Below the pieces are notes generated by a model. The model saw nothing but the letters and a program-made list of their open reading frames with translations, ran no database searches and had not been told where the DNA came from. Shown one piece after another: positions 5,439 through 18,950 of a stretch of DNA of 64,000 nucleotides. This DNA comes from Pseudomonas fragi (GTDB lineage: Bacteria > Pseudomonadota > Gammaproteobacteria > Pseudomonadales > Pseudomonadaceae): assembly GCF_002269505.1 (NCBI RefSeq), contig NZ_NQKQ01000021.1:1-64000 (forward strand). The letters are read 5' to 3'. How positions within the stretch are numbered: the stretch's first letter is position 1; each line of letters begins with the position of its first letter. Position numbers and translations under genes: made by a program.

Positions 5439-6590
5439 TTACTTCTTCAACCCGGCAATACAAGGCGATACAAACAGCTCGCCGCGATAGGCCCCTTGCA
5501 CGGTGCGGGTGCCCACCAGCAGCCACATCATCGCCAGCGCCAGTACCAGTACACAACCGGCCACATCAAAGAAGCTGAGGTGCAGCATGCTGCCCAGGCG
5601 CAAGGTTGCCAGCGAATACACGCCCAGCGGGAAGGTGAAGCCCCACCAGCCGAGGTTGAACGGAATGCCCGAGCGGAAATAGCGAATGGTGATCAGCGCC
5701 GCCATCACAATCCACCACAAACCAACACCCCACAAGATAACCCCAGAGATCAGCCCCAGACCCTCAACGATCTCACCGATTCGTGCCAGGCCATTGGCCG
5801 CAAAGATCGCCGGAGCATCGGCGCCCAGCAACAGCAGACCCAGGGCACCGGTGCCGATAGGGCCCAACGCCAGCCAGCTGGAGGCTGCCATGCTCTCGTG
5901 GGGCAGTTTGTGCAGTGCCATGCGCAAAATCAGAATGGTCAGGATGCTGAAGGCCACCGGCACCGAAAACGCCCACAGTACATAGCTGGTAATCAACACA
6001 TGGAACTGCATGACGGTATCGCTCAGATACGGTGCCAATAGACCGCCACTGGCTGCCGCGACCTCAGCCGCCACCACCGGCAGCAGCCAGACAGCCGTCA
6101 TCTGGTCAATACTGTGGTCCTGACGGGTAAACATCAGGTAGGGGATCAGCACGCCGCAGCCCAGCGCCATGGCCACATCGATCCACCACAGCACCTCGGC
6201 CACCTGCACCATGCCTTCGCCCCAGCGCGGCACGCCAAACACCAGAAAACCGTTAATGATGGTGGCCAGGCCCATAGGGATGGTGCCAAAGAACATCGAC
6301 ACGGTGGAGTGCCCGAAAATGCGCCGTGCCTCATCGAAATACAGCACCCAGCGCGCGCCATAGAGCACGCTGAACAGAATGAACAAACCGATATTGAACA
6401 GCCACAGCCCCTCGGCAAAGGCATGCACACCCGGGATATGCACCGGCAATTGAGCCAGGGCCAAGGCCAGCACACCTGTACCCATGGTCGCGGCAAACCA
6501 GTTCGGGGTGAACTGGCGGATCACTTCACGGGGGTGCTGCAAGTGGCTAAAAGGCCGAAAACCGGCTTTGGCATTAGTTGGGCAAGTCAT
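5439..6590 (-). CDS. TDT-family (TehA/SLAC1/Mae1-like) transporter
   Basis: 383-residue integral membrane protein with about ten helices and the family opening FTPNWFAATMGTGVLALAL (about residues 28-46). The TDT family includes tellurite-resistance protein TehA, dicarboxylate carrier Mae1, sulfite exporter SSU1 and anion channel SLAC1, so the likely cargo is a small anion, but it cannot be named. A strong AGGAGG ribosome-binding site lies 6 nt before the ATG. It is divergent from the downstream sensor kinase across a 240-bp gap. Confidence 0.82.
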   Translation of the reverse strand: MTCPTNAKAGFRPFSHLQHPREVIRQFTPNWFAATMGTGVLALALAQLPVHIPGVHAFAEGLWLFNIGLFILFSVLYGARWVLYFDEARRIFGHSTVSMFFGTIPMGLATIINGFLVFGVPRWGEGMVQVAEVLWWIDVAMALGCGVLIPYLMFTRQDHSIDQMTAVWLLPVVAAEVAAASGGLLAPYLSDTVMQFHVLITSYVLWAFSVPVAFSILTILILRMALHKLPHESMAASSWLALGPIGTGALGLLLLGADAPAIFAANGLARIGEIVEGLGLISGVILWGVGLWWIVMAALITIRYFRSGIPFNLGWWGFTFPLGVYSLATLRLGSMLHLSFFDVAGCVLVLALAMMWLLVGTRTVQGAYRGELFVSPCIAGLKK

Positions 6591-14363: not shown

Positions 14364-15647
14364 ATGAAAAAAGTAATGCTCAAGACCACACTTGGCCTCG
14401 CCGTCACTTTGGCTTCCAGCCAGATTTTCGCTAGCGGCTTCGCACTCAACGAACAAAGCGTAAGCGGTATGGGGACCGGTTTCGCGGGTCGTTCATCTTC
14501 TGCCGACGATGCCAGTACCGTTTTCGGTAACCCTGCCGGTATGTCCCGTCTCAGCGGCCAGCAAGTGACTGGCGGTATCGCCGTCATCGATGCTTCGACT
14601 GATATCAAGGACGCAAGCGGAAAATACCCTGGCACCAACAAAGGTGACATGGTTCCGTTCACTGGCGTTCCGATGGGCTTCTACACCAACAAGCTCAATG
14701 ACCAATGGGCTGTAGGTTTTGGTGTTTACGCACCTTTCGGCCTGGTTACCGACTATGAAGGCGGCTTCCAGGGCCGTGCATTCGGCAAAAAAAGTGAAGT
14801 TAAGGTTGTCACCCTGCAACCGACCGTCAGCTACGCATTCAACGACAAGGTTTCGGTGGGCTTCGGTCCAACCTTCAACCGCATCAGCGGCACCCTGGAA
14901 TCAGACCTGACCGTTCTGAACCCTGCTTATGGCGACACCAACGTAAAAGTAAAAGGTGACGATACCGCCCTGGGCTTCAACGCCGGTATTTTGGTACAAG
15001 CAACCGACACCACACGTCTTGGCCTTACCTACCACTCCAAGGTGAGCTACAAACTCGAAGGCCATACCAATGTGACCGCAGGGGCCAATACCCCTCCGCA
15101 ATTGATGAGAAGCAACCGTTATGACGCATCGCTGAAAATCGATACGCCAGAGTCCTGGGACCTGTCCGTTACACAAGACCTGTCCGACGCCTGGAAACTC
15201 TACGCCGGTACCACCTGGACCCGCTGGAGCCGTTTGAAAGACATCACCATCAATAACGACGGTGTCAGCCAGGCTGCCTCCGGCGGCGTCGGCGCGCAAC
15301 TGTTCGGCACCATCAAGGAAGAGCAAAACTGGCACGATACCTGGGCTTATGCCATTGGTACCTCTTACCAGTTGAACAAACAGTGGGTACTGCGTACTGG
15401 CCTGACCTGGGACCAGTCGCCTACCAACAACGAAAATCGCTCGCCACGTATTCCTACCGGCGACCGTACGATCTTCAGCCTGGGTGCCGGTTATGCCGTC
15501 AACGAGAACCTGACAATCGATGCTGCCTATTCCTATCTGAAGGAAGAGTCGGTCAAGGTTCACGACAAGAACCAGTTGAACGAATACAGCGCCAAGTACG
15601 AAAACAGTGCTAACGGTTTCGCTGTAGGTGCAACCTACAAGTTCTGA
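14364..15647 (+). CDS. fadL: FadL-family outer-membrane long-chain fatty acid/hydrocarbon porin
   Basis: 427 residues with a cleavable signal peptide (MKKVMLKTTLGLAVTLASSQIFAS) followed by GFALNEQSVSGMGTGFAG and a NPAG motif, which mark the N-terminal plug of FadL/TodX-type proteins. The rest alternates like a 14-strand beta barrel and ends GFAVGATYKF, with the terminal Phe recognised by the Bam complex. These channels admit long-chain fatty acids or aromatic hydrocarbons through the outer membrane. Pseudomonas often has several paralogues, so the exact substrate is open. AAGGAG lies upstream of the ATG, and a bidirectional terminator follows. Confidence 0.9.
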   Translation: MKKVMLKTTLGLAVTLASSQIFASGFALNEQSVSGMGTGFAGRSSSADDASTVFGNPAGMSRLSGQQVTGGIAVIDASTDIKDASGKYPGTNKGDMVPFTGVPMGFYTNKLNDQWAVGFGVYAPFGLVTDYEGGFQGRAFGKKSEVKVVTLQPTVSYAFNDKVSVGFGPTFNRISGTLESDLTVLNPAYGDTNVKVKGDDTALGFNAGILVQATDTTRLGLTYHSKVSYKLEGHTNVTAGANTPPQLMRSNRYDASLKIDTPESWDLSVTQDLSDAWKLYAGTTWTRWSRLKDITINNDGVSQAASGGVGAQLFGTIKEEQNWHDTWAYAIGTSYQLNKQWVLRTGLTWDQSPTNNENRSPRIPTGDRTIFSLGAGYAVNENLTIDAAYSYLKEESVKVHDKNQLNEYSAKYENSANGFAVGATYKF

Positions 15648-15682
15648 TTCGCTGCGAGGCTGACCGCCTCGCCTGCTGAATC

Positions 15683-15722
15683 AAAAAAATCCCCGCTCTC
15701 GTTACCGAGGCGGGGATTTTTA
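15683..15722. terminator. Bidirectional terminator between fadL and the GPx-like gene
   Basis: A-run, AATCCCCGC...GCGGGGATT stem and T-run are symmetric, so it can serve both convergent genes. Confidence 0.88.
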
Positions 15723-15733
15723 ATGGGCGCTTT

Positions 15734-16288
15734 TCAGGGTTTTGACGCGATGGCTCTGTCGATCGCCTCAAGCAAGTCCGGGCTATCAGGCTTGGTCAGG
15801 CTGGAAAAGTTGGCAATTACATTGCCCTGGCGATCCACCACATACTTGTAGAAGTTCCACTTCGGCGCACTGCTCTGCTCCGCCAGCACCTTGAACAGGT
15901 GTGCCGCGTCAGGGCCGCGTACATGCTGCGGGTCGATCATGGTGAAGGTCACGCCGTAATTGACGTAGCAGACCTTGGCCGTCTCCTCACCATCCTTGGC
16001 CTCTTGCTTGAAGTCGTCCGAAGGCACGCCAATCAACTCCAGCCCCTGAGCCTTGTAGCGCTGATTTAACGCCTCAAGCCCCTTGAACTGCGGGGCAAAG
16101 CCGCAAAAGCTCGCCGTGTTGACGATCAACAGCGGTTTACCGGCGAAGCGCTGGCACAGATCGATCGATTCCTTGGCCCGCAATTTGGGTAGCGAGCCCT
16201 CCAGCAAGGGCGGGCAATCCGCGGCCCACACCGAACCGACGCAGGCCAACAGCAGTACAGGCATCGCAATCCAGCGCTTAAGCATCAT
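15734..16288 (-). CDS. Exported glutathione peroxidase-like protein
   Basis: 184 residues with a signal peptide ([22 protein letters not shown]) and a thioredoxin-fold GPx domain. The peroxidatic cysteine is in [11 protein letters not shown] and the WNF motif is present ([11 protein letters not shown]). The catalytic glutamine usually found in a PSNQF motif is replaced: the sequence reads PSDDF. Peroxide reduction in the periplasm is likely from the family, but the substitution leaves activity and electron donor uncertain. The start may be the first or second Met. It is convergent with fadL and lies downstream of the MFS/short-peptide pair. Confidence 0.85.
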
Positions 16289-16339
16289 TGGTGTCCTTGA
16301 GAAAGAGGCAATCTCAGAACTTACTCATCCGCCGCCACA

Positions 16340-16462
16340 CTAGCAAGCACCCAGACCCAACTGCATCAAGGCCAGCCCACCCTGATGCCAGCCCCACCAG
16401 GCCAGGGCCAGCAACAAGGCACCGACACTGATTGTTCCCAAACGGATCCAGGTTGAATTCAC
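16340..16462 (-). CDS. 40-residue membrane peptide coupled to the MFS gene
   Basis: A GTG start overlaps the TGA stop of the MFS gene in a GTGA arrangement, with GGGGAG 6 nt upstream. The product is 40 residues: an N-terminal MNSTWIRLG, one hydrophobic helix (ISVGALLLALAWWGWHQGG) and a LMQLGLGAC end. The tight overlap, good ribosome-binding site and single membrane helix argue that it is translated. A small accessory subunit of the transporter is one possibility; the function is unknown. Confidence 0.62.
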   Translation of the reverse strand: MNSTWIRLGTISVGALLLALAWWGWHQGGLALMQLGLGAC

Positions 16463-17667
16463 CCCAAACTCCCCTGCGCCTGTAAACGAGCCACCGGGCG
16501 CTCACGCACCGGCCAGTTCAAGGCTGCCGCCAACAGGCTCAATAGAATTGATACTTGCCAGATCAAATCGTAGCTACCGGTCTGATCATAGACCACGCCA
16601 CCCAACCAACCGCCCAGGAATGCACCCAGTTGATGGAACAGGAACACAATCCCGCCCAACATCGACAGGTTACGCACGCCAAACATGGTCGCCACGGTGC
16701 CATTGGTCAGCGGCACCGTCGACAGCCACAAAAAGCCCATGGCCATACCGAACAGGTACGCGCTGAACTGCGTCACAGGTGCCCACAGGAACACCACGAT
16801 AACCACCGCCCGCGCCAGGTATAACCCGGTCAGCAAGCGCGGCTTGGACATGCGCCCGCCCAGCCAGCCTGCGGTATAAGTACCGAAAATATTGAACAGG
16901 CCAATCAGTGCAAGCACCGTGGTACCCACCGTCGCGGGCAGGTGCTGGTCCACCAGGTACGCTGGCAGGTGAATACCGATAAAAACCACCTGAAAGCCGC
17001 AGACAAAAAAGCCAAACGCCAACAACCAGAAGCCCGAGTGCGAGCACGCCTCGTGCAGTGCTTGCTTGAGGGTCTGATCCGCGCCCAGGCTCGGCAACGG
17101 CCGATCCTTGAGCATACTGACCAATGGCACGATCAGCGCGACCAGCAACCCCAGCACCAGAAGCGCCGTCGACCAGCCGAGCCAGCCAATCAGGCCCAGC
17201 GTACCGGGCAGCATGGCAAATTGACCGAAGGAGCCGGCAGCGCTGGCGATCCCCATGCCCATGCTGCGTTTTTCCGCCGGCAGGGCACGGCCTACTACCC
17301 CCAGAATCACCGAAAACGACGTACCGGACAGGCCGATACCGATCAGCAGCCCTGCGCTCAATGACAGCGACAGGGGCGAGTCCGACAGACCCATCAGCAA
17401 CAGTCCCACGGCATACAGCACGCCACCGACGATCACCACCTTCGCTGCGCCAAAGCGATCGGCCAAAGCCCCGGTAAAGGGCTGGGCCAGACCCCAGATC
17501 AGGTTTTGCAGGGCGATGGCAAATGCAAACACCTCACGCCCCCAGCCAAACTGCGCACTCATGGGCGGCAGAAACAGCCCGAAACCATGCCTGACACCCA
17601 ACGACAGTGCCAAAATAAGCGCACTGCCAAGAAGGACCCAACCGCTGTTACGCCACACCGATGTCAT
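16459..17667 (-). CDS. MFS transporter, probably controlled by the adjacent MarR regulator
   Basis: 402 residues, about twelve membrane helices, with the loop 2-3 motif GALADRFGAAKV and RHGFGLFLPPMSAQFGW near the N-terminus, as in OFA/monocarboxylate-like MFS carriers. The substrate is unknown. The ATG at 17667 (MTSVWRNSG) has GGAG upstream; an in-frame extension to 17778 would run through the marR stop and the operator. A perfect palindrome GGGTATATACCC lies 18 bp upstream. It appears co-transcribed with marR and with the 40-residue peptide. Confidence 0.86.
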   Translation of the reverse strand: MTSVWRNSGWVLLGSALILALSLGVRHGFGLFLPPMSAQFGWGREVFAFAIALQNLIWGLAQPFTGALADRFGAAKVVIVGGVLYAVGLLLMGLSDSPLSLSLSAGLLIGIGLSGTSFSVILGVVGRALPAEKRSMGMGIASAAGSFGQFAMLPGTLGLIGWLGWSTALLVLGLLVALIVPLVSMLKDRPLPSLGADQTLKQALHEACSHSGFWLLAFGFFVCGFQVVFIGIHLPAYLVDQHLPATVGTTVLALIGLFNIFGTYTAGWLGGRMSKPRLLTGLYLARAVVIVVFLWAPVTQFSAYLFGMAMGFLWLSTVPLTNGTVATMFGVRNLSMLGGIVFLFHQLGAFLGGWLGGVVYDQTGSYDLIWQVSILLSLLAAALNWPVRERPVARLQAQGSLG

Positions 17668-17684
17668 TGTTGTTCTCCGGGAGC

Positions 17685-17696
17685 GGGTATATACCC
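17685..17696. promoter_or_regulatory. Palindromic operator candidate ahead of the MFS gene
   Basis: GGGTATATACCC is a perfect 12-bp palindrome in the 52-bp gap between marR and the MFS gene. The same core, GCGGGTATATAC, occurs just before the marR start, so a shared MarR-type binding site is likely. Confidence 0.6.
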
Positions 17697-17719
17697 ATTT
17701 ATAATCGCGCGACTGACCC

Positions 17720-18133
17720 TCAGTCAGTACCCGCCAACTCATCCAATAGTTGTAGCAATTGCGCAGGCTTGGCTTCACCCAAACGGTCCATCAAACGCTG
17801 CTGTGCCGCTTCCCAAGCCGGCAAGGCGGCCTTGAGGCACTCTTCACCGGCCTGCGTCAGGCACACCAGCCGATTACGCTGGTCCGCGCCCTCTGTCATC
17901 TTCACCAACCCGGCTCCTTCAAGCACCCGTACGTTACGCCCCAACGTACTGCGATCCAGGCCCATGGCCTCAGCCAGGCTGGAAATACTCGGTTGATCGA
18001 GCCGCTTGAGATTGCATAGCAAGGAATACTGGGCGACGTTGATCCCGAAGCCGTCGAGAGCGCCGTCGTAATGCCTGCTCACGCCACGTGCAGCACGTCG
18101 CAGATTGGTACATAAACACTGGGTTGGTAACAT
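17720..18133 (-). CDS. MarR-family transcriptional regulator
   Basis: 137 residues from the ATG at 18133 (MLPTQCLCTNLRRAARG...). The winged helix-turn-helix spans about residues 40-100 (SISSLAEAMGLDRSTLGRNVRVLEGAGLV, then a wing DQRNRLVCLTQAG). MarR proteins are dimeric repressors released by small phenolic or oxidant ligands. A possible TTG start at 18154 would place the operator inside the gene, so the ATG is preferred. Two copies of a GCGGGTATATAC element, one upstream of each gene, suggest it represses itself and the MFS gene. Confidence 0.88.
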   Translation of the reverse strand: MLPTQCLCTNLRRAARGVSRHYDGALDGFGINVAQYSLLCNLKRLDQPSISSLAEAMGLDRSTLGRNVRVLEGAGLVKMTEGADQRNRLVCLTQAGEECLKAALPAWEAAQQRLMDRLGEAKPAQLLQLLDELAGTD

Positions 18134-18138
18134 TTTGT

Positions 18139-18152
18139 ATGTATATACCCGC
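18139..18152. promoter_or_regulatory. Operator candidate at the marR start
   Basis: On the minus strand GCGGGTATATACAT lies directly upstream of the marR ATG. It shares GCGGGTATATAC with the palindrome before the MFS gene. Confidence 0.55.
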
Positions 18153-18215
18153 AATAGAAGAGAATCAAGATTTATGCAGCGCCGCCTGCCCGGTTTTTTG
18201 TGGGAGCGGGCACCG

Positions 18216-18950
18216 TCAGATCAGCGCCAATCCTACCAGCACCAGCACTTCGAGCAATTCCAGCAACGCCCCGGCGGTATCACCGGTGGTGCCGCCCAAA
18301 CGACGGATCATCACCCTGCGCAGCCACACGAACCCCAGCGCTGCCAGGCCAAGCGCCCACCAACCTGGATAACCTGCCAACAGCACACAAACAAGGGCAC
18401 TAAGCCCCAGCACCCACCACCCTGCCTTACGTGGCAGATGGTCAGCCAGCGCCTGCCCCAAGCCACCCGCGCGCACATAGGGCGTAGTCAGGAATACTGC
18501 CAGCAAAGCACTGCGCCCGATCAAAGGGACAATCAGCAAGGCAGTACCGTTGCCCTGCTCAAGCAAGGCCAGCAGCGCACAAAACTTGAGCAACAGCACC
18601 AGCACCAGCACAACCACCGCGATAGGCCCGCTGCGCGGGTCTTTCATGATGGTCAAGGTGCGTTCGCGATCACCAAAACCGCCCAGCCAGGCATCCGCAC
18701 TGTCAGCCAGGCCGTCCAGATGCAACCCGCCACTGAGCAACACCCAAAGGGTCAACAACAAGGCTGCGTGCAACATCAACGGCGCATCGGCCAGCAGCCC
18801 GCTAACGCCGTACAACAGCAGGCCGAACAACACTCCCACCAGCGGGTAAAACAACAAAGAGCGCCCCAGCTCTTGAGGCTGCGGCATCCCGGGCAAGCGA
18901 ACCGGCAAGCTGCTTAAAAACTGCAGGGCAATCCAGAACGGCAACATCAC
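18216..18950 (-). CDS. cobS: Adenosylcobinamide-GDP ribazoletransferase (cobalamin synthase)
   Basis: 244-residue polytopic membrane protein, called CobV in the P. denitrificans/P. aeruginosa naming. It has the family motif GGLHLDGLADSADAWLGG (about residues 74-91) and joins adenosylcobinamide-GDP with alpha-ribazole (phosphate) in the inner membrane, completing the nucleotide loop. The start overlaps the cobC stop by 4 bp (ATGA). It is the last gene of the cob operon; a single half-REP arm (TGTGGGAGCGGGC, about 18199-18211) lies just beyond. Confidence 0.95.
   Translation of the reverse strand: MMLPFWIALQFLSSLPVRLPGMPQPQELGRSLLFYPLVGVLFGLLLYGVSGLLADAPLMLHAALLLTLWVLLSGGLHLDGLADSADAWLGGFGDRERTLTIMKDPRSGPIAVVVLVLVLLLKFCALLALLEQGNGTALLIVPLIGRSALLAVFLTTPYVRAGGLGQALADHLPRKAGWWVLGLSALVCVLLAGYPGWWALGLAALGFVWLRRVMIRRLGGTTGDTAGALLELLEVLVLVGLALI

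Follow-up and report, generated by a model that had tools for sequence, protein, structure and literature searches.

A one-helix peptide encoded at the stop codon of an MCT-like MFS transporter gene in Pseudomonas and its relatives: a probable accessory subunit with a conserved terminal cysteine

Introduction

The closest described systems to the locus reported here are those in which a small membrane protein modulates a transporter, as AcrZ does for AcrB, MgtS for PitA and for MgtA, and WatS1 for WatABO (PMC10710835; PMC7267776). A 2023 review gives small-protein partners for PtsG, PitA, MgtA, MgtB, MntP, AcrAB-TolC, WatABO and FeoB, and the portion of its text available to us names no MFS carrier with such a partner (PMC10710835). 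A literature search for a pair of an MFS carrier and a small partner returned nothing relevant, which is not proof of absence, and the main text of a paper on P. stutzeri small proteins mentions neither an MFS carrier nor a WWGW motif (PMC10433244). The partner of an MCT is a single-TM protein, basigin or embigin (PMC7996999, PMC12894981), basigin having extracellular Ig domains and, in its helix, a Glu that meets TM6 of MCT1 (PMC7996999).

The locus described here lies in a window of 64,000 nucleotides of Pseudomonas fragi DNA (contig NZ_NQKQ01000021.1, positions 1 to 64,000), in which a reading frame of 40 residues directly follows an MFS transporter gene. Its product agrees with the small single-TM accessory proteins of the AcrZ/MgtS type, a class defined by function and not by sequence family, in being a short protein with one TM helix and in its link to one transporter. 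The likeness is one of description, and the partners differ, those of AcrZ, MgtS and WatS1 being RND pumps, phosphate or metal transporters and P-type ATPases, whereas here the partner would be an MFS carrier. KdpF of KdpABC and CydX of cytochrome bd are small subunits of ~30-40 aa with one helix, encoded beside their large subunits; size, helix and gene placement are alike, but again the partners differ and the comparison is descriptive.

The window carrier is distantly related to MCT1 and MCT2 and its candidate partner is likewise a single-TM protein, but the analogy to the pairs with basigin and embigin is one of role only, as the Ig domains and the acidic TM residue that characterize the MCT-basigin pair are absent from the 40-residue window peptide, which has neither Asp nor Glu and no further domains. 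Because MCTs pair with basigin or embigin, a one-helix partner for this type of carrier is less strange than it might appear. The closest solved relative of the window carrier by sequence is SfMCT (6g9x), although the carrier scores below the cut-off of that family, and SfMCT is not known to have a small partner. An MFS carrier is as a rule regarded as a machine made of one polypeptide, and to our knowledge no carrier of this MFS type has been described with a small partner that keeps a Cys at its end. Small transporter partners being already known, it is such a partner, for such a carrier, that would be new here.

Results

The small reading frame and its carrier

The features of the locus are as follows.
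16340..16462, minus strand: small ORF, GTG start, 40 aa, one TM helix, C-terminal Cys (conserved, selected, AF2 helix 3-38)
16459..16462, minus strand: GTGA start-stop overlap of the small ORF and the MFS gene (common to 152/168 relatives)
16469..16474, minus strand: GGGGAG, possible ribosome-binding site, 6 nt 5' of the GTG (absent in most relatives)
16388..16399, minus strand: WWGW, codons 22-25 (invariant in the 21-sequence alignment A1)
16343..16345, minus strand: codon 40, C-terminal Cys (also retained in divergent versions)
16459..17667, minus strand: MFS transporter gene, MCT/OFA-like, putative partner of the small ORF (Pfam MFS_1 6e-36; NCBIfam; PDB relatives)
15734..16288, minus strand: glutathione-peroxidase-like gene, next downstream (Pfam GSHPx 6.7e-21)
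17720..18154, minus strand: gene of a MarR-family regulator, in front of the MFS gene, with an uncertain start codon (Pfam MarR 3.4e-09)
14364..15647: FadL-type gene, in the opposite orientation to the small-ORF and MFS genes

The small ORF encodes MNSTWIRLGTISVGALLLALAWWGWHQGGLALMQLGLGAC on the minus strand; its GTG start is at 16462 and its TAG stop ends at 16340. The MFS gene stops with a TGA at 16461..16459, inside which the GTG of the small ORF begins, giving GTGA. A frame of 40 residues beginning inside the MFS stop codon, with this overlap, had been described in the initial annotation and is borne out, its strand being minus; the hydrophobic single helix, the adjacent Trp pair (residues 22 and 23, with further Trp residues at 5 and 25) and the terminal Cys described there are all present in the window peptide. 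The suggestion that annotation tools would miss the frame applies to part of the records: none is listed for P. aeruginosa or A. baumannii, in a gene table with known gaps, but it appears as a 'hypothetical protein' in records of Halomonas, Paracoccus zhejiangensis and Burkholderia stagnalis. No Pfam or NCBIfam family matched the window peptide at E<=1, and six divergent versions of it gave no match above cut-off in either collection. The peptide does not fit a lipoprotein: the Cys of a lipoprotein lipobox becomes the first residue of the mature chain, and a Cys that is last or near-last would leave no mature chain.

The MFS protein reached 124.5 bits against MFS_1 (PF07690), for which the gathering score is 33.4. 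Its best NCBIfam model was that of the SfMCT L-lactate transporter (NF049980, 5.8e-36), at 124 bits where the cut-off is 320. Solved relatives were SfMCT 6g9x (phmmer 1.1e-16), MCT2, OxlT and MCT1, the relation to MCT1 and MCT2 being distant (E 2e-06 to 1e-10), and our guess is that the substrate is an organic anion. AF2 run on the MFS protein alone, with a 32-row alignment of close relatives, gave a mean pLDDT of 54.3, a model of too low quality to search for related folds.

Start-stop overlap and reading frame

Among 168 relatives, the start of the small ORF lay at -3 relative to the MFS stop (ATGA or GTGA) in 152 and at 0 (TGATG) in 10; of the remaining starts, 2 lay at +2, 3 at +11 to +14 and 1 belonged to a fused case (locus L171). 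A start codon was found in 167/168 small ORFs (140 ATG, 27 GTG). The GGGGAG that the initial annotation had read as the frame's own ribosome-binding site does stand 6 nt before the GTG in the window, but a strict GGAG, GAGG or AGGA at -18..-4 occurred in only 36/168 relatives, and an SD site is therefore not general among them. With the stop-start overlap and the lack of an SD site in most relatives, we infer that translation of the two genes is coupled by termination and reinitiation.

One alternative is that ribosomes shift frame at the end of the MFS gene and add the small ORF to the C-terminus of the MFS protein, which would make a 13-helix carrier instead of a separate peptide. Among 167 distinct small ORFs adjoining an MFS gene, the frame relative to MFS was the same in 162, as such an extension would predict, different in 4 and the MFS frame itself in 1, the L171 genome, in which both lie in one frame. 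L171 may be a natural fusion or a sequencing error; relative to L185 it carries a single additional G within a G-run, and it was not counted as evidence of fusion. The near-universal start codon speaks against an extension, as do start positions that range from -13 to +25 where the MFS identity is 50.5-60%, and we consider frameshifting very unlikely.

Another reading accepts the peptide but has it regulate the turnover of the MFS protein, for example by acting as an FtsH adaptor through which the carrier is protected or delivered, instead of serving as a stoichiometric subunit. MgtS, MgtR and MgtU are precedents for such regulators (PMC10710835), and the divergent N-terminal part with a kept C-terminal end, described below, would suit a recognition tag. 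Against this, the start-stop overlap in 162/168 relatives would suggest constant co-synthesis and not a switch, and a turnover role appears unlikely.

Conservation and selection

With lenient settings (E<=1, at which some weak matches may be due to chance), the 40-residue query matched 383/398 genomes of the genus. A profile of 21 sequences matched 184/248 Pseudomonadaceae genomes in 15/19 genera (E<=0.01). The order-wide profile search (E<=0.01) matched 9/145 genomes, five within the family and four outside it (L192-L195); an MFS gene precedes the matching stretch in L194 and L195 but not in L192 and L193. Class-wide, 3/369 matched at E<=0.001, namely the genome of the window, a second genome of its family and a stretch interrupted by a stop. 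A plasmid search with the peptide as query gave no match. The WWGW motif was not kept outside the Pseudomonas-like versions of the peptide, nor was it present in all later relatives.

Nei-Gojobori counts without correction, for random pairs drawn from 121 versions of forty residues, gave a pN/pS of 0.216 over codons 16-40 and of 0.727 over codons 2-15, while the same DNA gave 0.87 and 1.48 in the two other frames and 0.98 in the antisense control. Changes in codons 16-40 concentrated at third positions (0.211 vs 0.135 and 0.057), and ungapped DNA identity was 0.70 within the ORF vs 0.37 over the 40 nt 3' of it. The small ORF evolves faster than its neighbour, with a pN/pS of 0.287 vs 0.089 for MFS (918 pairs). 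Since pN/pS is low in its own frame and not in the controls, the small ORF is under purifying selection as a protein, strong on the C-terminal part and weak on the N-terminal part. The initial annotation had put forward conservation of the frame and of its overlap as a check, and in the Pseudomonadaceae the frame and the overlap are both conserved.

High conservation of a short stretch right behind a long gene could equally point to an RNA element or translational device, the peptide being incidental. In codons 16-40, however, it is third-position changes that dominate, pN/pS is low in this frame only, and the amino-acid design outlasts both the DNA and the neighboring genes. An RNA element was rejected on the codon-position and frame controls and is hardly credible.

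In one locus (L152, ~6076-6252), a truncated MFS tail with a peptide fragment follows ~2 kb behind the first copy, before the peroxidase gene, and looks like a partial duplication.

Changing neighbors and the question of the peroxidase

A terminator-like hairpin with a T-run lies at 15697-15715 on the plus strand, 3' of the FadL-type gene; five such sites were found in 15600-18300, where 3.5 are expected from shuffles. From P. aeruginosa gene order and numbering, the MarR gene before this MFS gene is probably PA1285. According to a 2005 paper, PA1285 resisted deletion in PAO1 and was taken to be essential (PMC1173109). If that gene is indeed the MarR counterpart, its presumed essentiality leads us to speculate that unrestrained, derepressed expression of the MFS-peptide pair may be harmful or toxic to the cell.

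The gene next to the small ORF offers a further alternative, namely that the peptide is a real membrane protein that acts with the adjacent peroxidase, in a redox relay through its Cys, and not with the carrier. The window peroxidase-like protein has a hydrophobic N-terminus, and a peroxidase gene lay within 300 nt in 74/80 Pseudomonas loci (the best 80). In a table for P. putida KT2440, the major facilitator PP_1684 (+1.51) and the glutathione peroxidase PP_1686 (+2.11) are both induced under pressure plus oxygen (PMC3621253); these two genes would be the orthologs of the window MFS and peroxidase genes, and their induction also counts in favor of the carrier-subunit reading. In loci from across the family, however, a peroxidase gene lay within 300 nt in only 13/40, and there was no peroxidase match in the f109 stretches (~1.5 kb flanks) or in Halomonas, Acinetobacter and Paracoccus (3 kb flanks), which makes a peroxidase partnership quite improbable.

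None of the four window neighbors was present in 17/40 family-wide loci. Read by eye, the genes around the pair were parE and dapA in several loci of family f109, which we take for Burkholderiaceae by its gene content, with the pair between them, and uppP-like and rRNA-methyltransferase-like genes in another genus. The pair also occurs in plasmid records of P. aeruginosa, Halomonas, Acinetobacter baumannii, Paracoccus and Burkholderia. The peroxidase, MarR, FadL and CobS genes were each rejected as a constant partner, being absent from many loci, and in these gene orders the peptide accompanies the MFS gene and not the other neighbors. The range of the small ORF is far wider than the window alone could reveal.

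Co-occurrence with the MFS gene

As most loci with the pair had been found through the peptide, co-occurrence was measured on loci found through the MFS sequence; these include the own window, and 10/13 plasmid records were taken in. The automatic test asked whether a TM-like ORF follows the MFS gene, with or without a Cys. Such an ORF was present in 15/15 loci at an MFS identity of at least 60% and in 36/38 at 50.5-60%, where the ORF of L250 was seen separately and the sequence behind the MFS gene of L264 is masked and unreadable. A later set comprised 20 of 35 further MFS matches initially without a fetched locus, and here the ORF was found in 4/4 loci at 50.5% identity or more and in 3/16 below (L296, L298 and L304). 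In total, 56/57 loci at an MFS identity of at least 50.5% have the ORF, the 57th being the unreadable one.

Below 50.5%, the first set had 4/43 loci flagged, among which L272 (Burkholderia stagnalis) and L274 (Paracoccus aminophilus plasmid pAMI4) look real and L232 and L235 do not; with the later set, 5/59 carry credible peptides (L272, L274, L296, L298 and L304) and 54/59 are without. These five led us to reject 50.5% as a sharp border. As most MFS homologs below this identity do without a peptide, the MFS fold itself needs none. The L274 peptide has only 24 residues, little beyond a bare helix, yet ends in LLC.

The reverse comparison gave a similar picture. Among 30 genomes without a peptide match (all 15 of the genus set and 15/64 of the family set), 29 were also without MFS at E<=1e-60, and the 30th has an MFS relative of ~40% identity and no credible peptide. 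Loci with a match to the peptide profile contained MFS in 189/191 cases, the exceptions being L192 and L193, weak matches elsewhere in the order. As a baseline, 190 other long ORFs were taken from the window and 40 loci: 20 were followed by any ORF of 30-60 aa at -4..+15, and 2/190 met the hydrophobicity cut, both with a Cys near the end and neither peptide-like by eye.

In a tree of 101 MFS proteins, built before the later set, 55 peptide-bearing proteins group together in a single clade (support 0.996), which the B. stagnalis MFS and a peptide-less Cupriavidus MFS adjoin, though weakly supported. L285 and three Paracoccus proteins, all with peptides, fall among peptide-less ones in other parts of the tree. 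The pattern would fit loss in some lines and parallel gain alike, and the two cannot be told apart on it. In L271 (Cupriavidus metallidurans CH34 megaplasmid), the MFS protein is sister to a peptide-bearing one and there is no recognizable peptide, which is possibly a natural loss.

Type I toxin peptides, which are toxic on overexpression and have an antisense RNA as antitoxin, were considered for the size and helix of the small ORF product; the linkage to MFS speaks against them. The genomic association thus described indicates that the small ORF and the MFS gene form a functional pair, although gene linkage could instead reflect joint regulation rather than binding.

Divergent versions and the terminal Cys

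The peptide ends in ...LALAWWGWHQGGLALMQLGMGAC in Pseudomonas, ...LALVWWGWHQLDGALLLLGSRLC in Halomonas, ...LLAVFALYTRPEFLVTLADQIWACF in f109, ...SIVLWKQTPDLFEYFNQAFCAH in Acinetobacter and ...GLALWRAYGLPVALTSGGMLC in Paracoccus. These versions share a design, with an N-terminus that is usually basic, one hydrophobic helix, an aromatic residue then often followed by Pro or Gly, and a Cys near the end, and it is on position and design, not on sequence score, that we regard the distant ones as probably homologous.

Among 193 distinct peptides, 168 of which came from a set whose search pattern demanded a Cys near the end, the residues after the last Cys numbered 0 in 153, 1 in 34, 2 in 5 and 7 in L251. 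In a test blind to Cys, the peptide ended in C or Cx in 162/162 and 8/8 loci at an MFS identity of at least 62% and in 26/29 at 50.5-62%, the rest ending in CFG, CFS and CFGGSVR. In the later set a Cys stood 1 or 2 residues from the end in 7/7, and L152, L153 and L158, which have versions 1 to 3 residues shorter, retain the Cys end. By these counts across divergent versions, the terminal Cys is the most widely kept feature of the peptide.

No Cys of the MFS protein combines invariance with restriction to peptide-bearing carriers. Cys223 is the sole invariant one, present in 205/205 proteins on the peptide side and also in 32/32 counted as peptide-less (including L274, which has the 24-aa version). 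The MFS cysteines were accordingly rejected as disulfide partners, and a conserved disulfide between peptide and carrier is argued against.

Discussion

All of these observations suggest that the small ORF encodes a dedicated accessory subunit of the preceding MFS transporter, a reading to which we assign a probability of about 0.7. The initial annotation had raised this as a possibility, and it has gained support from the persistence of the pair as its neighbors change and from the lack of MFS in nearly all of the peptide-less genomes.

The pair could work as follows. Ribosomes finishing the MFS message would re-initiate at the overlapping start, so that the two products stay in proportion. 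The helix would insert with its N-terminus in, the usually basic N-terminal segment lying in the cytoplasm and the Cys end in the periplasm. K and R together average 1.27 in the first 12 residues vs 0.18 in the last 14 (n=168); topology is uncertain for the 14/168 peptides whose first 12 residues include neither K nor R. AF2 predicted the peptide as one helix (3-38) with a mean pLDDT of 82.7, block means of 86, 95, 82 and 68, and lower values in the last ten residues. This helix would pack against the 12-helix carrier. Mean-field DCA of MFS and peptide gave strong inter-protein scores at an effective sequence number of only 12-46 (12 at 80% identity), too few for these scores to be interpreted. 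The peptide may be needed for stability, assembly or activity of the carrier, somewhat like basigin for the MCTs and AcrZ for AcrB, and its C-terminal Cys probably has a specific role at the periplasmic face, be it redox response, contact with metal or substrate, or a disulfide.

A more specific form of this model is tentative and, in our judgment, has less than an even chance of being right. It is possible that a clade of MCT-like carriers, spanning Gammaproteobacteria (in the wide sense, including the former Betaproteobacteria) and some Alphaproteobacteria, has a micropeptide subunit whose C-terminal Cys at the periplasmic face acts as a redox or metal switch or as a gate residue controlling transport; the peptide would then be a cysteine-tipped 13th helix and the pair a bacterial counterpart of MCT-basigin.

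In summary, a conserved one-helix peptide accompanies a clade of MCT-like MFS carriers and is probably their accessory subunit. If this is true, transporters of this clade that were studied or expressed alone would have lacked a subunit, and the stretches right behind transporter stop codons may yield missing subunits.
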